In this document: positions 4,346-33,621 of the stretch, in pieces
How the letters are laid out: every line of letters starts with the position of its first letter
Position numbering within the stretch: position 1 is the stretch's first letter
Source of the DNA: a virus
Direction: 5' to 3' (one strand)
DNA: 34,190 bases
Virus record (IMG/VR): IMGVR_UViG_3300030106_000647
Coordinates: 1-34,190 of that record
Notes under the pieces: generated by a model
Databases searched by the model: none
Told to the model about the DNA's origin: nothing
Seen by the model: the letters and a program-made list of their open reading frames with translations, nothing else
Program-made: the position numbers and the translations under genes

Positions 4346-6166
4346 TTAATTTCTTTGTGTTATAACTTTATGAGACAACGTGTATTCTATGTTAAAACTA
4401 ACCAAACCTATTTCTTGATTTACAGTTTCAACATCGCTATTTGTTATTATTACTGGTATATATTCTTTTGTTGATGGTCTTAGGTAAGGGTTTCTTTCTT
4501 TTCCCTGACTTGTAGCATCGGTATCCATTTCTATCCATACGTTAGGAGACAACATCATTTTTGACAGCCACTTAGAATCAGTATCATTTAAAGGCTCTGT
4601 ATAAACACTTTGAGTTTTTTCTGCATTTACATTTAACACTTCTCTACCTCCCTTATATATATCACCACCTCTCATTGTGTCTGAATGATAACGAGTGTTG
4701 TCTGTAATAGTGCTAGATGAATGAGCATTTGAAGTGCCTGTTCTATCTTTGTTGCTTTGATACCACGTTCTATCTGTGCTATTTCTTTCTATTATGCCCT
4801 TACCTATAGAATAGCCCTCTGCAATATTTCTCTTGCAAGTATAACTATCTGTAGCACCTAAATCATTAAGCCAATGAAATCTTACAAATCCATAAGGTAT
4901 TTTTGCATCTTCCCTATCTATAGAATAATATCTATATTCAGATGTTCTTCTATAGAGCGCTGTATCATCAAGCGAAAACCTTCTGAGGCTAACTCTGTAG
5001 TAAACTGTTGATGATGTTATTGGAGTGCTTGTACCATACGCAGACCAATGGTCAGCAATAGCACCAGTACCACTAGAATCATAAGTTTTTAAACTAGCCC
5101 CATTATTTATATATTCTGGAGATATGTTTTGAGTAAACATACCATCTTGGTTTGTTGCAAAATAATCATCACTAGCATCTACCACAATTAAATTATCTTC
5201 AAAGTCACGCACATAAAACTGATTTTCTGTACTACCACCAGCAGTAAACGTTTCTACATACATACCCATTGCTCTTACGCTATCATTGCCAGTCCCCCCT
5301 ATGTTATCTGAATCTGCCTCTTTGATATAAAAGTTTAAATATTCAGCCTCCTCATCTATTCTAATTGGTTTTTTTGCAGGCACAGAAGAGTCGGTAGAAC
5401 TGTTTTCATATCTTGACAAGAACTTGTATGCGTTATATGTTGAACTTGACGAACTATCTTGCATTATATAATCGTATAGATATAGTTTGTCTTGTTCAAA
5501 TTGATTTACAGAATTAATATATGAAACATTATATGAAGTTTTTATGTCTGTAGCAACAGTAACCTCAACTATTTGTCCTGAAGCATTTATGACATATGGG
5601 ATTGCCTTAACCCTTACCCTTCTATATGTCCCGTTTAACGAAACATTAAAATTACTTATTGGTTGACCACCTGTAGACTGTGTGTTTGACAAAACATTAT
5701 CTTGCATTATAGCACCCCCATTCATTCCACCATATTTAGTGCTTTGCCATGTTCCCTTACCTATTGGGCATAGACTGTATGATAGTTGGTCTGAAACTAT
5801 TTGATGTATGTCTATTGTAAATCTATGGTTAAAAGCAGCAGTTTCATCATTATATTTTTTATTTACAATATCTCTAGTCTTACATATAGTTGCTATTGTT
5901 GTATAATTACCATCCCCTTTTAGTATTTGAATATTAAATTTAATATATACTACGTCTCCCTCTGCACTAGCAGAAACATACGACCCTGCTGAAGGCTCTA
6001 AATCTTCTGTAAGACCTGGTTTTGACCATACTATTTGGTATCTTAAAGGTTCATTTGCACTTTTTAAAAAATTGTCTCTGTTATCCCAAAAAGCACCAGC
6101 CAAATCACTATTATTAAATTCTAATGGAACAATACCCCATTTTACACTTCCATTTACACCTGCCAT
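4346..6166 (-). CDS. Tail structural protein (distal tail/tip region)
   Basis: 606 aa. It begins MAGVNGSVKWGIVPLEFNNSD and has beta-rich, Tyr/Ser/Asn-rich composition with long low-complexity Ser stretches around residue 237. No catalytic motif is visible. Position between the LamG-tailed protein (6170-7348, 3 bp away) and the tail-hub protein (3 bp away) places it in the tail-tip cluster. Such tight spacing suggests co-translation with its neighbours. I call it structural from context and composition. Whether it is a distal tail protein, a fibre or a baseplate-like component cannot be decided from sequence alone. Confidence 0.65.
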   Translation of the reverse strand: MAGVNGSVKWGIVPLEFNNSDLAGAFWDNRDNFLKSANEPLRYQIVWSKPGLTEDLEPSAGSYVSASAEGDVVYIKFNIQILKGDGNYTTIATICKTRDIVNKKYNDETAAFNHRFTIDIHQIVSDQLSYSLCPIGKGTWQSTKYGGMNGGAIMQDNVLSNTQSTGGQPISNFNVSLNGTYRRVRVKAIPYVINASGQIVEVTVATDIKTSYNVSYINSVNQFEQDKLYLYDYIMQDSSSSSTYNAYKFLSRYENSSTDSSVPAKKPIRIDEEAEYLNFYIKEADSDNIGGTGNDSVRAMGMYVETFTAGGSTENQFYVRDFEDNLIVVDASDDYFATNQDGMFTQNISPEYINNGASLKTYDSSGTGAIADHWSAYGTSTPITSSTVYYRVSLRRFSLDDTALYRRTSEYRYYSIDREDAKIPYGFVRFHWLNDLGATDSYTCKRNIAEGYSIGKGIIERNSTDRTWYQSNKDRTGTSNAHSSSTITDNTRYHSDTMRGGDIYKGGREVLNVNAEKTQSVYTEPLNDTDSKWLSKMMLSPNVWIEMDTDATSQGKERNPYLRPSTKEYIPVIITNSDVETVNQEIGLVSFNIEYTLSHKVITQRN

Positions 6167-13070: not shown

Positions 13071-13295
13071 TTAAAGTATTACTAATAATTCACAAAGTGC
13101 CAAATACAAAAAGACACTAATTAAAACGGCTATAATATTAAAAAGAATATTATCTTTTTTTTGTCTTTTTAATAGTGTTAAGTTTTGAACGTTGTAAAGC
13201 CAGTCTTTGTTTATTTTAAAGAATTGATTTTTTTCTTCTTCATTTAAAATGTGAGATGATTTTGTTTTGTAGTTTGTTATTTTGTATAAATTCAT
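13071..13295 (-). CDS. Small protein with C-terminal membrane anchor
   Basis: 74 aa. The N-terminal ~48 residues are basic and soluble (MNLYKITNYKTKSSHILNEE). Residues ~51-74 form one hydrophobic segment (LFNIIAVLISVFLYLALC), so the protein should be a tail-anchored inner-membrane protein with a cytoplasmic head. It lies 10 bp upstream of the zinc-finger gene and follows two very small ORFs. Function unknown. Confidence 0.55.
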   Translation of the reverse strand: MNLYKITNYKTKSSHILNEEEKNQFFKINKDWLYNVQNLTLLKRQKKDNILFNIIAVLISVFLYLALCELLVIL

Positions 13296-14562: not shown

Positions 14563-14811
14563 TTAGAACCTGTCTGACGTTTCACCATACTGATTTTCTA
14601 TCTCTACATCTGTTATAGTAATATTGACATTTTCTGGTTTCTTCTTGTTAACATAACATATTCTATTTACAAACTCTTCATCCTCTTTTATCTCTTTAAT
14701 GCTTGATGTTAAAGCAAATGTATCTAAAGTCCCCTTAATTACACTTCTTGTAATTCTTTTCTTATTTTTAATTTCGTAAGAGATAAAGACTCTAAATATT
14801 GGTTTTTTCAT
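14563..14811 (-). CDS. Hypothetical early protein
   Basis: 82 aa, N-terminal beta strands (MKKPIFRVFISYEIKNKKR) and an acidic central helix. No known motif. Its ATG overlaps the stop of the DUF1599-like gene (ATGA), so it is translated with it. Function unknown. Confidence 0.55.
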   Translation of the reverse strand: MKKPIFRVFISYEIKNKKRITRSVIKGTLDTFALTSSIKEIKEDEEFVNRICYVNKKKPENVNITITDVEIENQYGETSDRF

Positions 14812-15212
14812 TTTTCCATAGACATTTTTAAAAGAAGCAAATAACCTATAATATCATCTAAAGTATCTTCAGTGTTATCATTTATTCCTTTGTTTTTTAT
14901 TCTAGACAGTTTGTCATCTAGCCTTGCACATATTGCTTCTGTAGAATCTAATTTACTAAATATATTTGCTGGGTTAAGTGCTGTGTTGCCATATGCTGCA
15001 TTTTTTTCCTTCAGCAGTTTCACTATACTTTGTGATACTTTATCTAAATGCCAATCAAATTTGTATTTGCTTTTTTTTCTAGGTATATTTAATTCTTCTT
15101 TACTTAAAAGCATTTTTGGATTTATTTTAGATTCTTTTTTTGAATCTGTAGTTGAACTTGGAGTCCAGCCATTCCTACCAGTTTCATAAAAGTATTTATT
15201 ATGTTTAGTCAT
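14808..15212 (-). CDS. DUF1599/Nmad1-like protein (MazG-like helical fold)
   Basis: 134 aa. The C-terminal ~75 residues match the DUF1599 pattern: SIVKLLKEKNAAYGNTALNP, IFSKLDSTEAICARLDDKLS, NTEDTLDDIIGYLLLLK. The acidic and Asn/Lys positions are those expected of a helical nucleotide-pyrophosphohydrolase-like fold. The family has been linked to nucleotide modification or clean-up, although no reaction is proven. No thymidylate synthase or base-modifying enzyme lies nearby. The N-terminal ~60 residues are a basic, low-complexity lead. The ATG overlaps the stop of the preceding membrane microprotein by 8 bp. Confidence 0.72.
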   Translation of the reverse strand: MTKHNKYFYETGRNGWTPSSTTDSKKESKINPKMLLSKEELNIPRKKSKYKFDWHLDKVSQSIVKLLKEKNAAYGNTALNPANIFSKLDSTEAICARLDDKLSRIKNKGINDNTEDTLDDIIGYLLLLKMSMEK

Positions 15213-15333
15213 TGTTCTTGTTGTTATAGTTTTTTAAATTTTCTTCTATATCATTCTCTTCAACAAACAATATGTGCTTAACAAACATAAAGCAAATAAT
15301 TAAAAAAAATATTATAGTAAGTATTGATTTCAT
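15205..15333 (-). CDS. 42-aa membrane microprotein
   Basis: ATG 15333, TAA 15205-15207. One N-terminal hydrophobic segment (LTIIFFLIICFMFV) followed by an acidic, Asn-rich tail (EENDIEENLKNYNNKNND). The stop overlaps the start of the DUF1599-like gene by 8 bp, indicating coupling. Third of three consecutive tiny membrane ORFs. Function unknown. Confidence 0.5.
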   Translation of the reverse strand: MKSILTIIFFLIICFMFVKHILFVEENDIEENLKNYNNKNND

Positions 15334-15349
15334 TTTACAAATATATAAA

Positions 15350-15439
15350 TTATAATTCGTCATCAAATTTAGTACAGAAATATGCTTCTATTATACAATA
15401 TAATATAAGTATTCCCCAAATAGTTGTTAATATCTTCAT
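15350..15439 (-). CDS. 29-aa membrane microprotein
   Basis: ATG 15439 overlaps the TGA of the 20-aa ORF upstream (ATGA); TAA at 15350-15352. Hydrophobic residues 3-19 (ILTTIWGILILYCIIEAYF) form one membrane span and the tail is acidic (KFDDEL). The start/stop overlap supports translation. Function unknown. Confidence 0.45.
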   Translation of the reverse strand: MKILTTIWGILILYCIIEAYFCTKFDDEL

Positions 15440-15498
15440 TCTCTAATTTCTCTTATAAGCCACATAATAATGGCAGTTACTATTACCCATCCTATCAT
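15436..15498 (-). CDS. 20-aa membrane microprotein
   Basis: ATG 15498 overlaps the TGA of the 122-aa gene (ATGA), and its own TGA at 15436-15438 overlaps the next ATG in the same way. The peptide MIGWVIVTAIIMWLIREIRE is a single span with a basic/acidic end. Its size makes chance possible, but two ATGA junctions in series argue for coupled translation. Confidence 0.42.
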   Translation of the reverse strand: MIGWVIVTAIIMWLIREIRE

Positions 15499-15863
15499 TT
15501 TAATAATTTTGGTTCTGGTCTGTAATGTAAAACTCTTTCTGGATTTTCTCCTCTCTCTACTTTTGCTCTAGCATCCCAAATTAAATCTTTGTGCTTTCTT
15601 AGCCATTTCATATAAGTAGGAACATTAAGATGTATAAAGTCATTGTTGATTGGACTCCTTACTCCTAAGTTAAAAGCATTTTTAGCATCTTCAAAGTAAA
15701 AATTCTTGTATGTTTTTAGTAGGTCGTCAGCAAGGCTTTGTGCCATTACCATAATAGTATCTTCCTCAACATTATTTTGTCCTAACTCTATGTATGTTTT
15801 GCTTACTAAATCTACAGAGCCCATTAAAAGTTCTTCTTTTGTCATTGTCTTTATTAGTTTCAT
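15495..15863 (-). CDS. Hypothetical replication-module protein
   Basis: 122 aa, helical. It has SLADDLLKTYKNFYFEDAKN and VPTYMKWLRKHKDLIWDARA. The pattern of a helical protein directly behind an O-like initiator would fit a helicase-loader-like or replication accessory role, but no AAA+ motifs are present and the family is not recognised. The ATG overlaps the initiator stop (ATGA), so the two are coupled. Function is inferred from position only. Confidence 0.55.
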   Translation of the reverse strand: MKLIKTMTKEELLMGSVDLVSKTYIELGQNNVEEDTIMVMAQSLADDLLKTYKNFYFEDAKNAFNLGVRSPINNDFIHLNVPTYMKWLRKHKDLIWDARAKVERGENPERVLHYRPEPKLLK

Positions 15864-20806: not shown

Positions 20807-21085
20807 TTATTTTTTGCAATTACTTGCACAATCTCCACATTTTTTTTCAAAAGCAGAAAAACATAAAGGCAAAACTCCTAATGCTGTCATAATCAAAGAG
20901 TTTGTGTCTATACCATTTTTCTCTATATATAAACTAGCAGCAACAACAATTACACCACTTATGGTTCTTTTGCTACTCCACTTACCTTTAGTGTCTGTAA
21001 ATAATTCTTTTACTGCTTTTAATAGTTCTGTTATAGGCTTTACACCACCTGCCATAAGTGCCTCGCCAATCCATTTTTTTATCAT
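20807..21085 (-). CDS. Holin candidate
   Basis: 92 aa. Soluble N-terminal helix (MIKKWIGEALMAGGVKPITE), then hydrophobic segments at ~42-55 (TISGVIVVAASLYI) and ~63-80 (SLIMTALGVLPLCFSAF), then a Cys-rich basic tail (KKCGDCASNCKK). The two-span topology, small size and position directly after the M15 endolysin fit a class II holin that opens the inner membrane at lysis. No holin family is recognised by sequence. It precedes the late-unit terminator. Confidence 0.6.
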   Translation of the reverse strand: MIKKWIGEALMAGGVKPITELLKAVKELFTDTKGKWSSKRTISGVIVVAASLYIEKNGIDTNSLIMTALGVLPLCFSAFEKKCGDCASNCKK

Positions 21086-21089
21086 AATT

Positions 21090-21245
21090 TTATTTTTTGT
21101 AGTTAGGCACTATTGCGTCTATGATTGTATCTAGCCAACCAAAGATTCTATTGTCTGCTTCTGTTGGAGTTAAATTAGTAACAACTTTAGCAAAAGCCAT
21201 TAAGCCAATTAATAATTCCAACCAATTTTCTGTGATAAATTCCAT
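21090..21245 (-). CDS. 51-aa single-span membrane protein of the lysis cassette
   Basis: ATG 21245, TAA 21090-21092. The sequence begins MEFITENWLELLIGLMAFAK and has one hydrophobic segment (~8-25), followed by NLTPTEADNRIFGW and a second amphipathic stretch. It lies between the endolysin and the holin candidate. It may be an alternative holin, antiholin or a small spanin-like component, but there is no direct evidence. It looks like other short phage membrane proteins containing TPTxxDN-type motifs. Confidence 0.58.
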   Translation of the reverse strand: MEFITENWLELLIGLMAFAKVVTNLTPTEADNRIFGWLDTIIDAIVPNYKK

Positions 21246-21272
21246 AATATATATTTTAAATTAATACTCTAT

Positions 21273-21629
21273 TTAATATAGCCAGATTACTGGACTTACT
21301 TTGTCTACAACATCAATGTCTACATGAATAAAAGATTTGTGTAGTCCAAACCTCTCAAAATCTGCATAAACTAAAGCATCCATCATTATTGCTCTAGTGT
21401 TGCTATCTTCACATTCTATGTCTACCGCTAATCCTTTTATGTGTGATGATGTTGGGTTTTTTTTACTTTCTGGGTGGTTCTTACATCTATAACCACTATT
21501 TATTTTAAATGGTTTTTTAGCAAACTCTCTAGCCTTGTCTAACATATAAAGCAAATCATCACTTATAACAGTTTCACCACAACCACACTTACAAGTAAAT
21601 TCAGACTTTTTAAAATGTTTTAGTTTCAT
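21273..21629 (-). CDS. Endolysin, M15A-type peptidase
   Basis: 118 aa from ATG 21629 (MKLKHFKKSEFTCKCGCGE), placed 1 bp after the preceding stop; an earlier in-frame start would overlap that gene and adds an unlike 19 residues. Zinc ligands are visible: H63 and D70 in SSHIKGLAVDI and H102 in FIHVDID, with INSGYRCKNHPE upstream. This is the D-Ala/L-Ala-D-Glu peptidase fold (M15 family) that cuts peptidoglycan cross-links. The protein is a lone catalytic domain without a signal peptide, so a holin is needed for release; two candidates follow. Confidence 0.88.
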   Translation of the reverse strand: MKLKHFKKSEFTCKCGCGETVISDDLLYMLDKAREFAKKPFKINSGYRCKNHPESKKNPTSSHIKGLAVDIECEDSNTRAIMMDALVYADFERFGLHKSFIHVDIDVVDKVSPVIWLY

Positions 21630-21630
21630 A

Positions 21631-22296
21631 TTATTTTGATTTTTTAAGGTTTTCCATAACCTCATCAAAATACATTTTAAATTCATCTTTTATTTCTTCT
21701 TCTTCAGGTATATACTCTTCTGTTTTTTCTACATCGTAAGTAAATAAAATCAACATCTCTTGGTCTCCCTCTTCAACTTTTACTTCTAACTCACCATCAT
21801 GATGTAATGTTTCCATCATCTCTTGAGTAAAGTGAAAGTGATGGTCATGCTCTTCATCAGAATAGTATTTTCTTTTCTTTGCCATATTCTTTTTATCTAT
21901 TTGTTCTAATTTTTTTATAGCCCAATTTACACCAGCATCTCCTCCCCAAGCATCCCACATTATGCCTCCACACCCTTCATCATAAGGAACGTCTTTATGT
22001 TGTTGGTGTCTTTTAAACGAAGCCATACGAGCAATAGTGTCTCTAGTCAAACTCTCTCTGTTTGCCAACTGTCTTGCTCTAGTCCATCCTACTCTAGTTC
22101 CACAGTCACTACCATTTTCTTCTTTATACTTTATTGCTCTCTTAGCGTTATTAGTTGCTGCTTGTGGATAGTCATTATAAGTTTCTTCTGCATAATAATC
22201 CTTATTAGCAGTTTCACACTCTGATTTAGAATCATACTGACAGTTGCCAGTTTCACCAAACCTCCATTTACCATTTTCACATTCGTAGCAAGGCAT
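21631..22296 (-). CDS. Phage protein with Cys-rich N-terminus and WDAWGG domain
   Basis: 221 aa. N-terminus MPCYECENGKWRFGETGNCQ is a Cys-containing motif seen at the start of several Bacteroidota phage proteins. The middle domain (residues ~65-135: GWTRARQLANRESLTRDTIA, MASFKRH, GGIMWDAWGGDAGVNWAI) resembles a module often fused to prohead proteases and head-maturation proteins. A His-rich acidic C-terminal part (EEHDHHFHFTQEMMETLHHD) follows. Exact function is unknown. Being within the late unit it may be a virion or lysis-associated protein. Its stop is 1 bp from the endolysin ATG. Confidence 0.6.
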   Translation of the reverse strand: MPCYECENGKWRFGETGNCQYDSKSECETANKDYYAEETYNDYPQAATNNAKRAIKYKEENGSDCGTRVGWTRARQLANRESLTRDTIARMASFKRHQQHKDVPYDEGCGGIMWDAWGGDAGVNWAIKKLEQIDKKNMAKKRKYYSDEEHDHHFHFTQEMMETLHHDGELEVKVEEGDQEMLILFTYDVEKTEEYIPEEEEIKDEFKMYFDEVMENLKKSK

Positions 22297-25720: not shown

Positions 25721-27049
25721 TTATTTTGTTTCAGTTACTTGTAAGTCCCCTGCTTCATCATCACCCACACCATCTGCATCATCATCTCTTGTCACTATGA
25801 TTTGCTCTCTATCAGTTATAAACATATTACCCTCCTCTAACATTGGCAAGTCCTCATCTAACATTTTTCTTTGCTCGTTTATAGTTAAAATTGCCTTAGG
25901 GTCTATTTGAGTAGCGAAACTAATTGGTGGCTCATAGTGTATCACAAGTTCTTCAGGCAAGAATCCTAACTCTCTAAATAAAACAGTTCTAATACCATTT
26001 AATAGTAAATCAGAAGTATCTTTAATTACAGTAGTCATTGCTAAGTCATAAGCAATTCTAATCTCACTACCTGTATTATTCATTTTACCTGAACTAACCA
26101 AACCACTTAATGATGGCTGCCATCTGTGTGCAGTTACAATATTTTGGTCTGTTATACGTTGTAAGTCAATCCAACTACCCTCTTGGTCGTCTTTTATAAT
26201 CTGAACATTAGCCTGAGAAGCATCACCATTCTTAACAATAAACATTATCTTACCATTATTGCCATCACCAACAAACTTCTTTTGCGCCTCTCTAACTAAT
26301 TTCTTAGCCTCTTCTTCACCCATATCGCCATTAATCTCAATAATAGCAGATGGCTGAAAACCATTCTTAAATTTAGTGTGATTCCATTTACCAATCTCGT
26401 AGTCTACTGCAATATGCTCTAAGGCAGCCACATAATCTGGTAAACCATAGAATTGGAATGTTGGCTCGTAATCCTTAAATTGTATTACAAACCTACTACT
26501 TCTAACTCTTGGGTATATTGGTATTATAGAAAGTTTATCTTTCATAGTATTGTACTTAGCCCAGTCTGGGTGTACATATACTTCTTTTTTATTTTTAGAT
26601 GCTCTAACAGTAGTTGCATCTATGTGATATAGATTTAAACCACCATCATACAATACCCCCTCTAAGTAGGCATTTCCAAAGGTGTAATAATCATCTGCTA
26701 GTTTTTTAAAAACATCTCTTAAGGATTCTCCATCAGCATTTACATCTTTGATATATTCTTTAACAGTTTCATTGCTAGTTACAAATTTAGCACCACTTGT
26801 GAAAACTGATTTTTGTGCTAATACACTTCTGTGTGTACTAGACTTTCTTTTAAGTTCTGCTAAGTATTGAGGGAACAAGTTGTTTGTACCAAAAGGTATA
26901 AACTTAGTTCTTACTTTTGATAAGTCTTGTGGCTCTTCAATATGTTCAGGTATTGCTAAATTAAAAACTCCAAATTCAAAAGTATTACTCTTTTGAGTCT
27001 GAAGATTCTTTACCTGACTTTTTCTTTTTGGTTGCTTTCTTTGGCTCAT
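25721..27049 (-). CDS. Portal protein (HK97-type)
   Basis: 442 aa. It forms the dodecameric ring at the capsid vertex through which DNA enters. Family features are KFIPFGTNNLFPQYLAELKR near 50-70, FGNAYLEGVLYDGG near 123-136, IKFxxG-like strands and the long central helix (LAMTTVIKDTSDLLLNGIRT). The C-terminus is acidic (DDDADGVGDDEAGD), as in other portals. It is preceded by a basic N-terminus (MSQRKQPKRKSQVKNLQTQK). The first 65 bp overlap the gene upstream in another frame. Unusually, it lies downstream of the capsid and tail-tube genes. Confidence 0.85.
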   Translation of the reverse strand: MSQRKQPKRKSQVKNLQTQKSNTFEFGVFNLAIPEHIEEPQDLSKVRTKFIPFGTNNLFPQYLAELKRKSSTHRSVLAQKSVFTSGAKFVTSNETVKEYIKDVNADGESLRDVFKKLADDYYTFGNAYLEGVLYDGGLNLYHIDATTVRASKNKKEVYVHPDWAKYNTMKDKLSIIPIYPRVRSSRFVIQFKDYEPTFQFYGLPDYVAALEHIAVDYEIGKWNHTKFKNGFQPSAIIEINGDMGEEEAKKLVREAQKKFVGDGNNGKIMFIVKNGDASQANVQIIKDDQEGSWIDLQRITDQNIVTAHRWQPSLSGLVSSGKMNNTGSEIRIAYDLAMTTVIKDTSDLLLNGIRTVLFRELGFLPEELVIHYEPPISFATQIDPKAILTINEQRKMLDEDLPMLEEGNMFITDREQIIVTRDDDADGVGDDEAGDLQVTETK

Positions 27050-29037: not shown

Positions 29038-29448
29038 TTAGTTATTAAATTTATTTCTAATTTTTTCAGCCATTGCATTATAGAAACCTGCATTAGCATC
29101 TTCTTTTTTGTTTTCAACTACAGCAGGGTCTGCTTCAGTTTCAATTTTTGTACCCTTAGCATCTGCTTTGTTGATTTTAGCGTTTAACGCTTCAACCTCT
29201 TCAGTTAAAGTTTCGTTAGCACCTTTAGAAGTTGCTAATTCCTCCTCCAATAAAGAAATTTTATTTGATAACTCTATGTTATTAGTTTCAAATTCTGAAA
29301 TTTTATTCATAATTTCATCATTATCCCCTAGATTAACAGTTATCGCAGTTTGTTCAGCAACATCAGCAGAAACTTTTACATCACCTTTTACAGCAGTAAC
29401 AATCTCTTCAACTTTGTTGTTAAACCATTCTTTTAACTCGTTAGTCAT
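29038..29448 (-). CDS. Probable nested scaffold protein (internal in-frame start)
   Basis: ATG 29448 begins MTNELKEWFNNKVEEIVTAV, preceded by a run of A and AT-rich sequence as at other starts here. The product (136 aa) would be the acidic coiled-coil C-terminal half of the protease ORF. In lambda the scaffold Nu3 is made the same way inside gene C. The start is a prediction. Confidence 0.45.
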   Translation of the reverse strand: MTNELKEWFNNKVEEIVTAVKGDVKVSADVAEQTAITVNLGDNDEIMNKISEFETNNIELSNKISLLEEELATSKGANETLTEEVEALNAKINKADAKGTKIETEADPAVVENKKEDANAGFYNAMAEKIRNKFNN

Positions 29449-30072
29449 TTTTTTGTTATTTATATTAATACTTAATTTATTCTGTATTTCTTCTTGTGTG
29501 ATGTTCTTAAATTTAGAAACATCATACTTAGCAGCAACTTTTATAGAATCTGAGATAGTGTCTACAAAACCAAGTTCATATGCTTCTTGTGCATTTAACC
29601 AAGTTTCTTCATCCATCATCTCTGCCAAAGCATCATAAGATAATCCTGTCTTTTTTCTATAAATGTCTGTTAGTTCACCTGAGATTTTTTCAAGAGTTGC
29701 AGCAGTCTTTCTCATATCTTTTGCTTCACCCATTGCACCTCCCCAAGCGTTATGAATCATAAACAAAGAATTTTCAGCCATAACAACCTCATCTGCACCA
29801 AGAGCAATAATTGTAGCAATACTAGCCGCAATTCCCTCAATATAAACTGTAGTTTTAGCCTCTCTCCTTTTGATTACATTATACATTGCCATACCATCAA
29901 ACACATCTCCACCTAAACTGTTAATGCGTAAATTAATTGGCAAGTCCTTTAAATCTTTAATGTCATTAATAAACTCTTGTGCAGTTACACCATAAGTTCC
30001 TATTTCATCAAAGATATATACGTCAGCAGTCTTTCCTGCTTTATTCTGAATGTTATACCATTTTTCTGTCAT
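29038..30072 (-). CDS. ClpP-like prohead protease with C-terminal scaffold domain
   Basis: 344 aa. Residues ~1-185 are an S14/S49-type protease: RINSLGGDVFDGMAMYN (oxyanion loop), the nucleophile S84 in EGIAASIATIIA, H107 in FMIHNAWGGAMGEA, and ETWLNAQEAYELGFVD. Residues ~209-344 are an acidic, coiled-coil, Ala/Glu/Lys-rich scaffold (NIELSNKISLLEEELATSKG). An in-frame ATG at 29448 behind an A-rich leader would give a separate 136-aa scaffold, like lambda C/Nu3. It cleaves scaffold and other head proteins during maturation. The capsid gene follows by 14 bp. Confidence 0.86.
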   Translation of the reverse strand: MTEKWYNIQNKAGKTADVYIFDEIGTYGVTAQEFINDIKDLKDLPINLRINSLGGDVFDGMAMYNVIKRREAKTTVYIEGIAASIATIIALGADEVVMAENSLFMIHNAWGGAMGEAKDMRKTAATLEKISGELTDIYRKKTGLSYDALAEMMDEETWLNAQEAYELGFVDTISDSIKVAAKYDVSKFKNITQEEIQNKLSININNKKMTNELKEWFNNKVEEIVTAVKGDVKVSADVAEQTAITVNLGDNDEIMNKISEFETNNIELSNKISLLEEELATSKGANETLTEEVEALNAKINKADAKGTKIETEADPAVVENKKEDANAGFYNAMAEKIRNKFNN

Positions 30073-30942: not shown

Positions 30943-31021
30943 TTGTTAGCATTCCTAAAGTTAATACTGCGATTAATAGTGTTAAGTATATTATATACAC
31001 TCTTTTATCTTCTGTACTCAT
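30932..31021 (-). CDS. 29-aa membrane microprotein with C-terminal Cys
   Basis: ATG 31021 shares a TAATG junction with the tape-measure stop, and TGA 30932-30934 lies within the next gene (11-bp overlap). It begins MSTEDKRVYIIY and has one hydrophobic span (LTLLIAVLTLGML) ending in Cys. Its size and layout resemble the 11264-11353 ORF. Coupled start and stop overlaps support it. Confidence 0.5.
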   Translation of the reverse strand: MSTEDKRVYIIYLTLLIAVLTLGMLTNVC

Positions 31022-33621
31022 TATATTTTTGCGTCTGATTCAACAACAGAAACCTCTCTTTGTACACTTGTTATGTCAGACTCAACTACTACTACTTTAC
31101 TAGCACCACCCATAGCACCCATCATCTGGTTCTGACCTAAAACATTAAATTCTTGTTGGCTAAATGAAGGTTGGTTTATCATACCACCATCTGCAAACTT
31201 AACGCCACCTCCTGCTGCGTTCATTGCTGATAATTGATTTCTAAACATTGCTGTACTTCTTTTATTTATAACAGCCTCACCACCTTCTAGTTCTACTACT
31301 CTACCACCTACTGCAAACTTCTCACCACCCTGTGCGTGTGACTTGCCATGTACCATACCTCCATTTGCAAACTCTTCTATCACACCTCCATTTGCAAATG
31401 ATATTTGGTCAAAGGCTTTTTCAAAAACACCACTAACTAAACTACCTGCTGCTGCTGATAAAACAACAGCAAGAAATGGATTTGCTGAAAAAGTAGCAGT
31501 TATGTATGCAGAAACCGCTTCCATAATTTTTGCTCTAATGAATTTTTTAGCAGCATCAGATGCTGACTCACCTGACATTGCCGCCCTTTTAATGTCCTCT
31601 GCTAATGAGTCATCTTTTACTTTATTTGAATCTTCTGTTATTTCTTTTTCAACCTGAGCAAATCTTCTTAACAATTCTTCTCTGTCGTTAAATATAAGTT
31701 CTTCTTGCTCTAAAAGAAATCTTAAATTATCAAGTTCTTGTTTTAGTAAGTCTTGCTTTAATTTTGCTGACTCTTCTTCTGACAGATTGCCTTGAATCAT
31801 TTCGTTAAGCCTGAAATTTAACAACTCTTGTTCAACAGAGATTAAATTTTTCTTTTCATCAGCGTTTGCTTTTGTTGAATCTGTATTTTTATCTGTTGCA
31901 CCTGTATTTTCATTAGTTTGATTGGTGTTTTCTTCTTCTTTTTTTGTTGTTTCTCCTAAAGTTATTCCTAATCGCTTTGCTAAGGCGTCTCTATCTTCTG
32001 TTGCTTTATTCAACTCTTCTGTATGTTCTAAAAGTTCTTGATTAGCAAATGAATTCCTTATAACAAATTTGCTTAAATGTTGTAAAGACTTTGACTGTTC
32101 AGAGTGCAACCCTAAAGCACCATTGTCTGCCTCGTTTAACTTTTCTTTTACATGAGTATAATTTTCTGAAGCAGTAGCACCATCTAACAGGCTTATATTG
32201 TGTTTTTCTGACACTATAATTAGTTCATCAAATAAATCATTTTCTGCTTTTATTTGCTTGCTTCTGGCGTCTGCTGCATCTTGAGAAATTCCGTCTAACT
32301 TTTCCTGTTCTTTTTGAAGAACAATCCTATCTATTAATTGGTCATTATATTCTTTTAACCTATCTTTTAGTTCTTTTGTGTTTGTTTTTTCAGTATTTAT
32401 ATTTTTTAAAAAATCTGGGTACTCTTTATTTATTTTTATAATTAACTTGTTTCTATCTTCTTCTTTTATGTTAGTTTCTGTTAGTTGCAAAACAAGCCTA
32501 TTTAAAGCAACTCTTTCTTCGTCTAATTTTTCTGAAACTGGTATTTCTACAAAATCAGTCAGCGTGTTCATAAATGAAGCAAAATTTTCTACAACTCCCT
32601 GTATTTGTTTACCAAAGTTATCTATAAATGCTATTCTAAACCCTTGTGTTGCCGATTCTGCTCTTTTAAAAGAACCCTCTAAAGTGTCACCAACAATTCT
32701 AGCCATTTCTTGAGCAGCACCTGTAGCACCTTCTAACGCATCTCTTAATTCTACAGTTCTTTGTCTACTTGTAATCATCTGCTCAAACGCAGCAGCCTGT
32801 CTTAAATCAACAACTTCCATTATTTCTGCTAGGCTACCACCCTCTTCACTAAAATTTGTTAAAGCAGGGACTAATTCGTCTAAAGAGTGAATTGTTTTAC
32901 CAAAAGATTTTACTAAGTCTGAATTTGGGTCTTGCATTTTAAGCAAGATATTCCTTAAAGATGTACCAGCAATAGATGCTTCAATACCTGCGTCTGATAG
33001 TTGAGCCATAATCGCTGTTGTATCTTCAATAGAAAACCCTGCTGACTTTGCAATAGGCGCAACCTTAGTCATAGCAGTTTGAAACTTTTCAATGTCTAAT
33101 GCAGAACTTGTAAACGCTACAGCCATTACATCTACCACTCTTTGTGTTTCACTTGCATCTAATCCAAAACCTCTTACAGCAGAACCTGCCACTATTGCTG
33201 CTCTTGCTAAGTCACTATCTGTTGCTGTTGCTAACTGTAATGTCGCCTCTTGTGCGTTTAATATTTCTTGTGTGGTAAAACCTAACTTACCATAATTAGT
33301 TTGTAGTTCTGCAACTTGTTGTGCAGTAAAGAATGTAGAACGTCCTAAATCTTGTGCTGATTTTGCTAGTGCTAAAAATTCACTTCTGTTAGCACCTGTA
33401 ATTGCCTTAACTTTAGCCATCTGAAACTCAAAGTCTCTAAAACTTCTTAAAGCACTTCCAACTGCTTGTGTAATTTGTCTAAATGCCGCAACAGCACCTA
33501 AAACACCAGCAGCCATTCTTCCAAAACTCTTAGTTGTTGTTCCTGTTCTTTTCTCTAATCTTTTTAAGTCTTTCTCTCCTTGTACGACTACCTGTACTAC
33601 TATCTTTTCTGTATTTGCCAT
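31021..33621 (-). CDS. Tape measure protein
   Basis: 866 aa; sets tail length and lies inside the tail tube. N-terminal ~350 residues match the tape-measure core: RTGTTTKSFGRMAAGVLGAV, FEFQMAKVKAITGANRSEFL, AVAFTSSALDIEKFQTAMTK, AGIEASIAGTSLRNILLKMQ. The middle is long coiled coil (LLKQELDNLRFLLEQEELIF). The C-terminal end has the usual Gly-rich motifs (FANGGVIEEFANGGMVHG; VVELEGGEAVINKRS). At ~0.15 nm per residue a tail near 130 nm is expected (inference). It follows the neck gene by 11 bp, and a membrane microprotein overlaps its stop. Confidence 0.9.
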   Translation of the reverse strand: MANTEKIVVQVVVQGEKDLKRLEKRTGTTTKSFGRMAAGVLGAVAAFRQITQAVGSALRSFRDFEFQMAKVKAITGANRSEFLALAKSAQDLGRSTFFTAQQVAELQTNYGKLGFTTQEILNAQEATLQLATATDSDLARAAIVAGSAVRGFGLDASETQRVVDVMAVAFTSSALDIEKFQTAMTKVAPIAKSAGFSIEDTTAIMAQLSDAGIEASIAGTSLRNILLKMQDPNSDLVKSFGKTIHSLDELVPALTNFSEEGGSLAEIMEVVDLRQAAAFEQMITSRQRTVELRDALEGATGAAQEMARIVGDTLEGSFKRAESATQGFRIAFIDNFGKQIQGVVENFASFMNTLTDFVEIPVSEKLDEERVALNRLVLQLTETNIKEEDRNKLIIKINKEYPDFLKNINTEKTNTKELKDRLKEYNDQLIDRIVLQKEQEKLDGISQDAADARSKQIKAENDLFDELIIVSEKHNISLLDGATASENYTHVKEKLNEADNGALGLHSEQSKSLQHLSKFVIRNSFANQELLEHTEELNKATEDRDALAKRLGITLGETTKKEEENTNQTNENTGATDKNTDSTKANADEKKNLISVEQELLNFRLNEMIQGNLSEEESAKLKQDLLKQELDNLRFLLEQEELIFNDREELLRRFAQVEKEITEDSNKVKDDSLAEDIKRAAMSGESASDAAKKFIRAKIMEAVSAYITATFSANPFLAVVLSAAAGSLVSGVFEKAFDQISFANGGVIEEFANGGMVHGKSHAQGGEKFAVGGRVVELEGGEAVINKRSTAMFRNQLSAMNAAGGGVKFADGGMINQPSFSQQEFNVLGQNQMMGAMGGASKVVVVESDITSVQREVSVVESDAKI

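Follow-up and report, generated by a model that had tools for sequence, protein, structure and literature searches.

Tiny single-span peptide genes as exchangeable cassettes in a phage replication operon, with a possible role in modulating membrane proteins

Three minus-strand open reading frames (ORFs) of 20, 29 and 42 aa, each with a single predicted membrane span, lie one after another in a 34,190-base IMG/VR virus record (32% G+C), which was analysed over its entire length and is referred to here as the window. The question raised by this locus is whether ORFs so short are genes at all and, if they are, what peptides of this size could be doing beside the genes for phage replication.

Three tiny reading frames and their setting

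All three ORFs are present as a preliminary description of this DNA had them, and their coordinates were confirmed, together with the ATGA stop/start overlaps at the 122-aa/20-aa and 20-aa/29-aa junctions and the 8-bp overlap of the last ORF with the DUF1599-like gene (Table 1). The further claim that the three peptides are coupled by stop/start overlaps holds for two of the three start codons, but not for the junction of the 29-aa and 42-aa ORFs, which are separated by a 16-nt gap. A longer form of the third ORF (52 aa, from an ATG at 15363) is also present in the window, and since this ATG is missing from the two closest relatives (L001 and L002), the 42-aa start is taken as the conserved one. 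The proximity to replication genes was likewise borne out, as the gene upstream of the 122-aa gene is one for replication initiation (HTH_36 and PHROG replication families).

Table 1. Features of the tiny-peptide locus, in window coordinates
Feature	Position	Strand	Remarks
122-aa helical protein gene	15495..15863	-	directly before the peptides, after the replication-initiation gene
20-aa single-span peptide gene (MIGW family)	15436..15498	-	ATG to TGA
29-aa single-span peptide gene (MKILT family), acidic C-terminus	15350..15439	-	ATG to TAA
42-aa peptide gene, one span and NxIEENLKxYN tail	15205..15333	-	ATG to TAA
134-aa gene (taken to be DUF1599-like)	14808..15212	-	phrog_1485 match
ATGA stop/start overlap, 122-aa/20-aa	15495..15498	-	
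ATGA stop/start overlap, 20-aa/29-aa	15436..15439	-	
8-bp overlap, 42-aa gene/134-aa gene	15205..15212	-	identical 8-nt overlap in L081

The 122-aa protein, as modelled by AlphaFold (pLDDT 82.7, pTM 0.70), has no fold match at E 0.001 in a PDB search, and in BFVD this threshold was reached by 3 of the 250 matches listed, none of them named. On the other side of the peptides, the 134-aa protein matches phrog_1485, a family of unknown function (E 3e-13), and no Pfam family up to E 0.1; we presume it to be DUF1599-like, a label given in the preliminary description. A 74-aa protein with a C-terminal membrane span is encoded at 13071-13295 (minus strand), with similarly designed proteins in relatives, and the operon therefore holds one more membrane gene.

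The large terminase of the window matched 2,240 phage records, every one at less than 60% identity; the top match is to Croceibacter phage P2559Y (45%), and next come a sewage phage, a Chryseobacterium phage and Cellulophaga phages. None of the 42 window genes tested carries GGAG, GAGG or AGGA in the 17 upstream bases from -20 to -4, and Bacteroidetes are described as using no Shine-Dalgarno (SD) motif for initiation and re-initiation (PMC6728339, in the passages drawn on here). Since the terminase relatives and the SD-less window genes both point there, the host of this phage is probably a member of the Bacteroidota. Elsewhere in the record, on the minus strand at 25721-27049, 29038-30072 and 31021-33621, a tape-measure gene stands before the head protease and portal genes in transcription order, the reverse of the usual phage order.

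The serial overlap of the ORFs had been put forward as an argument against chance, and this argument proved weak, because -4 overlaps are common in this operon (5 of the 27 junctions in the gene list, with the 134/82-aa junction and the one that opens the 122-aa gene among them). When the sequence was shuffled 20,000 times with dinucleotides preserved and the junction ATG fixed, the first ORF reached 19 aa or more in 2,786 shuffles; in 305 of the 20,000 it also carried ATGA at its stop, and in 8 this was then followed by a second ORF that was hydrophobic and no shorter than 20 aa. Random ORFs of 19-45 aa drawn from the shuffles (n=1,103) were hydrophobic in 19% of cases. As far as predictions from sequence go, the status of the ORFs as genes is settled by their conservation in relatives and not by the overlap.

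Peptide families, selection and the tail-bearing peptide

Relatives confirmed in IMG/VR numbered 121 for the 122-aa protein, 98 for the 20-aa alignment and 158 for the 29-aa alignment, with 80 loci kept in each case; for another locus set, 83 relatives were confirmed and again 80 kept, so that further relatives lie beyond the loci used. Profiles were run on the ORFs of 303 loci, one of which (L153) is the window itself. Profile scores separate the 20-aa members from background, none falling between 44 and 9 bits among those listed, and for the 29-aa family the few intermediates among those listed lie at 39 and 21 bits. Contexts were counted once where a gene and its 150-nt flanks were contained exactly in another, so near-identical contigs stay in, and frames with fewer than 15 open codons were passed over, so broken copies fall outside the counts; on this basis, the 20-aa family comprises 94 distinct contexts including the window (54 of 19 aa, 38 of 20 aa and 2 of 21 aa) and the 29-aa family 92 including the window (62 of exactly 29 aa, with 84 of the 92 within 28-32 aa).

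Two of the 80-locus sets were gathered by conserved residues, so family conservation, omega and periodicity arise partly by selection of loci. Counts on trees gave 113 synonymous and 87 non-synonymous changes for the 20-aa frame, where 23% would be expected to be synonymous (omega about 0.23, P 3e-24), and 128 and 169, respectively, for the 29-aa frame (omega about 0.40, P 5e-14). Out of frame, at +1 and +2, omega of these genes is 0.94-1.8, and pairwise counts agree with the tree-based selection (0.27 for the 20-aa and 0.24 for the 29-aa family). Because fetching by conserved residues lowers omega, the selection test was repeated without the pattern-fetched loci, on the locus of the window and 152 loci obtained by way of the 122- and 134-aa proteins. 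In this repeat set, the 20-aa family (29 distinct sequences) yielded 60 synonymous and 57 non-synonymous changes (omega 0.28, P 1e-11) and the 29-aa family (28 distinct sequences) 82 and 122 (omega 0.44, P 2e-8), with omega of 1.0-2.7 in frames +1 and +2. By this comparative evidence, the ORFs of 20 and 29 aa are genuine genes, with purifying selection confined to that frame. One alternative frame is open in 63 of the 80 distinct 20-aa sequences, and in L027 and L036 a longer ORF from the alternative frame enters the following gene, so gene-calling software could merge the tiny gene with the adjacent one; genes of 19-21 codons also fall under the size that gene callers usually accept.

No model in PHROGs, Pfam or NCBIfam matches the peptides confidently. 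The 37-aa family phrog_3098 (unknown function), which matches 23 of the 25 members of the 29-aa alignment (best E 0.004), may be a distant relative of the 29-aa family. Sarcolipin and DUF3311 were considered as relatives of the 20-aa family: of its 25 members, 7 were too short to scan, and among the other 18 sarcolipin matched 7 (best E 0.03) and DUF3311 4 (best E 0.015), which was taken as chance; the window's own 20-aa peptide matches neither. Searching PDB chains with the 20- and 29-aa profiles gave none at E up to 10. Isolated phages held no match for the 122-aa protein or for the 29-aa or 20-aa peptide by tblastn, which is insensitive for short hydrophobic queries, and among bacterial genome contigs no (prophage) homologue was confirmed from 63 pattern matches for the 29-aa and 42 for the 20-aa peptide, a search covering pattern-bearing sequences only. 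The literature searched contained no published mention of the four peptide strings.

The 42-aa ORF belongs to a broader set of peptides, in which a variable single span leads into a tail that fits N-x-[IL]-x-x-N-[LI]-x-x-[FY]. Omega of the tail is 0.57 over 17 distinct sequences (P 0.03) and 0.40 (P 0.002) in the IEENL tail subset, which was picked after viewing the data; for the 42-aa gene (6 sequences), it is 0.57 in the span (P 0.04) and 0.41 in the remainder (P 0.06). The coding evidence for this ORF is modest and weaker than for the 20- and 29-aa ORFs. Overall, the view of the three ORFs as genes for tiny membrane peptides gains strong support for the 20- and 29-aa members and moderate support for the 42-aa member from the families and their selection. 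AlphaFold models the 42-aa peptide as one helix over residues 2-40 (pLDDT 85.8, pTM 0.40). Positive charges follow the span in many members of this type, which by the positive-inside rule makes the tail probably cytoplasmic.

Natural fusions of the 29-aa span with the 42-aa tail occur in seven loci (L003, L004, L011, L013, L015, L027 and L031), on seven differently named contigs, and in five of them (L003, L013, L015 (=L083), L027 and L031 (=L085)) the fused gene lies directly before the DUF1599-like gene; since fusions usually mark parts acting together, this suggests a common task for the span of the 29-aa peptide and the tail of the 42-aa one. Other forms of the tail were also seen, namely a 28-aa tail-only ORF with no span in L012/L086 (about 5928-6014 in L086) and a tail peptide fused to a soluble gene of the 73-aa type in L096 (116 aa, about 5664-6014). 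In several relatives, a family of soluble proteins of 86-96 aa has an N-terminus, such as QNEKLIKNLENM, that resembles the tail motif; as a relative of the 42-aa tail it was rejected, its scores of about 8-11 bits being inseparable from chance.

Cassettes behind replication-region genes

Across the 94 contexts of the 20-aa family, the preceding gene comes from the 122-aa cluster in 60 and overlaps the peptide gene by -4 in 69, and at the 3' end 84 carry an ATGA at which the next ORF (of at least 20 codons) starts, again a -4 overlap. The conservation check proposed in the preliminary description was thus run, and both the hydrophobic pattern and the overlaps are kept in relatives. What follows is variable: a 29-aa or tail-bearing peptide comes after the 20-aa gene in 31 of the 94 contexts, the rest being other clusters, some of which look like a methyltransferase or helix-turn-helix regulators. 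The 29-aa gene is preceded by the 122-aa cluster in 41 of its 92 contexts and in 14 by a protein with what we take to be a Walker-type motif. The 122-aa cluster reaches as far as sequences only 31-37% identical to that of the window.

The slot after a close orthologue of the 122-aa gene was scored in 65 distinct cases (80 loci less 14 duplicates and 1 short end). ATGA stands at the 122-aa stop in 51 of them and is absent from 14; the first ORF belongs to the 20-aa family in 21 slots and to the 29-aa family in 8, and is a fused form in 3, another hydrophobic ORF in 3 and non-hydrophobic in 14, and in the 2 that remain the ATGA opens fewer than 15 codons, one of these being the stop-broken 20-aa copy of L045. 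Of 21 long records, which were taken from the 122-aa list on account of their length, 12 carry a member of the 20-aa family and 9 a member of the 29-aa family (both peptides in 4, the 20-aa alone in 8, the 29-aa alone in 5, neither in 4). A fixed 20-aa/29-aa pair was rejected on this count. Frame disruption in relatives, which would have spoken against the genes, was looked for and is mostly absent: among the 12 copies of the 20-aa gene matched in these whole records, the only broken one, with an internal TAA, is that of L045 (record G012). As the next gene varies and the long records rarely carry both peptides, the peptides are, on this comparative reading, independent, exchangeable cassettes behind replication-region genes and no fixed unit.

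Possible action at the membrane and known systems

The pattern of conservation within the 29-aa family bears on what these peptides might do. Among the 29-aa peptides starting with MKIL (76 of the 81 distinct, so that residues 1-4 are constant by construction), conservation is periodic with a peak at 110 degrees (alpha-band permutation P 0.012); W8, I12, C15, A19 and C22 lie on one face with most of the variable residues opposite, and the conserved E18 and F21 fall off the proposed face. In loci not fetched by the peptide pattern, the peak is again at 110 degrees with P = 0.07 (27 peptides), for which reason the docking face on the 29-aa peptide is a putative one. No periodicity was found in the 20-aa family (P 0.32, and 0.70 in loci not fetched by the peptide pattern).

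We tentatively propose, as a reading that is quite possible though somewhat short of probable, that the three ORFs encode tiny phage inner-membrane peptides, carried as exchangeable cassettes of the replication operon, which modulate membrane proteins by helix docking. Ribosomes ending the 122-aa gene would re-initiate at the ATGA overlaps with no need of a Shine-Dalgarno motif, and the co-translated peptides would insert into the inner membrane and dock, helix side by side, onto a host (or phage) membrane protein, thereby altering its activity or turnover, much as small regulators such as MgtS do with transporters. The 29-aa peptide would dock through its W8, I12, C15, A19, C22 face, and the 42-aa peptide would be a span displaying a short Asn/Glu/Leu tail, probably on the cytoplasmic side.

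Several other roles have to be weighed against helix docking. The preliminary description suggested superinfection exclusion, besides host takeover or energy manipulation, as a possible role. Small phage membrane proteins are known to exclude superinfection, and cassette-like exchange between phages would suit a phage-phage conflict in which inner-membrane peptides block the entry of a second phage's DNA; this explanation appears unlikely to us, as no PHROGs or Pfam family matches confidently and as the near-constant 20- and 29-aa sequences, a constancy owed in part to the way the loci were fetched, are unlike the usual arms race. Decidedly unlikely is a membrane anchor, with the 42-aa tail binding the DUF1599-like or the 122-aa protein and so tethering enzymes of replication or nucleotide metabolism: tail-bearing peptides often directly precede and overlap the DUF1599-like gene, and the peptides often come after the 122-aa or other replication-region genes, but in other phages many DUF1599-like genes lack a peptide of this sort immediately upstream, a soluble gene of 67-75 aa often lies in between, and the 20- and 29-aa peptides are nearly devoid of a soluble part.

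The peptides are also similar in size and hydrophobicity to type I toxins, small hydrophobic peptides of a sort known in bacteria, and might depolarise the membrane and shut down the host. A bacterial example cited for such peptides is DinQ (PMC3567139, in the part of that source drawn on here). We hold this to be improbable, given that one-faced conservation of the 29-aa peptide, if real, would favour a specific partner over bulk membrane damage, and that coupling within the replication operon would bring in a toxin at a time when the phage still depends on its host. Single spans are compatible with a holin, pinholin or antiholin as well, and two alignments each contain a single member with a weak PHROG match of this kind (holin, E 0.11; Rz-like spanin, E 0.057); such a lysis role is very improbable because the lysis module sits elsewhere, at 20807-21686 (minus strand), more than 5 kb away, where the endolysin (phrog_894, 21273-21686, minus strand), about 5.8 kb from the peptides, is followed by hydrophobic ORFs of 51 and 92 aa that are holin-like by eye. 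The peptide genes do not lie beside the endolysin, where a holin gene would be expected. Least credible of all is that the ORFs are functionless relays, which in an SD-less host would merely pass ribosomes from the 122-aa gene to the next: the -4 overlap is indeed conserved with whichever gene follows (84/94), but amino acids are under selection in the reading frame only, and length and residues are preserved beyond what a mere open frame would require.

For the helix-docking reading, the nearest known protein is MgtS, a small protein of E. coli that binds the magnesium pump MgtA, stabilising it, and probably inhibits PitA (PMC10710835 and PMC10925321, in the passages drawn on here). Against Pfam, the 29-aa peptide of the window matches PF22865 best (MgtS-like; E 0.025, 14.9 bits, below the 27-bit gathering score), a model listed for 6 of the 25 members of the 29-aa family within a limit of E 10. 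This E-value alone means little, because other members match unrelated Pfam families at lower values (ApoA-II 0.0035, Tap-RNA_bind 0.0046, Ac76 0.0051); the NCBIfam MgtS model NF033842 matches 1 of the 25 members (E 0.022) and not the window peptide. In a direct comparison, chosen after viewing candidates and borderline once corrected for all Pfam families, the 29-aa profile aligns with E. coli MgtS (from NC_000913) over 27 ungapped residues at 33% identity, with an hhalign probability of 86% and a score of 26.0, unmatched by 600 MgtS segment shuffles (best 17.4) and by 600 hydrophobic tiny ORFs of the loci (best 20.2), and with a HMMER score of 10.6 bits vs. at most 8.6 in 40,000 shuffles (34,796 scored, the others counted as lower). 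Among the papers listed in a literature search on MgtS and phage, no title concerns a phage counterpart of this kind.

Given this MgtS-like match and the action of MgtS on MgtA and PitA, a transporter-tuning micropeptide is the leading mechanism for the 29-aa peptide by analogy, and we do not file the peptide as an MgtS. The bolder version, in which it is a viral MgtS analogue and forms, with the 20-aa peptide and the tail-bearing helix, a swappable kit that retunes host magnesium or phosphate transport during replication, seems rather unlikely; if the MgtS-like reading were true, phage replication would be linked directly to host ion transport. As real and widely shared cassette genes, the peptides offer defined minimal targets for phage action on host membrane proteins.

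Compared with known systems, the peptides are new families of a known sort, since phage small proteins have already been described in the millions; like those treated in a review (PMC11323111, in the passages drawn on here), they are shorter than 100 aa, mostly of unknown function and placed between larger genes. The same passages cover the regulators Qtip, MOR and AimX, whereas here single-span peptides of 20-42 aa come in a coupled series. With the ATGA gene pairs that undergo termination-reinitiation (PMC6728339, likewise in part), the locus shares the overlap and the SD-less starts of Bacteroidetes; unlike those pairs, the window chain includes cistrons of only about 20-30 codons and has a variable next gene. 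The 29-aa peptide differs from MgtS in its conserved cysteines (15 and 22) and glutamate (18), which MgtS does not have, and in belonging to a phage operon where MgtS is a bacterial gene; MgtT, the product of the small gene next to mgtS, is not hydrophobic by sequence, unlike the neighbouring phage peptides. It resembles MgtS (31 aa) in its length, its single span and its Lys-aromatic-acidic ending, and the 1-nt overlap of mgtS with mgtT is akin to the overlaps in the phage.
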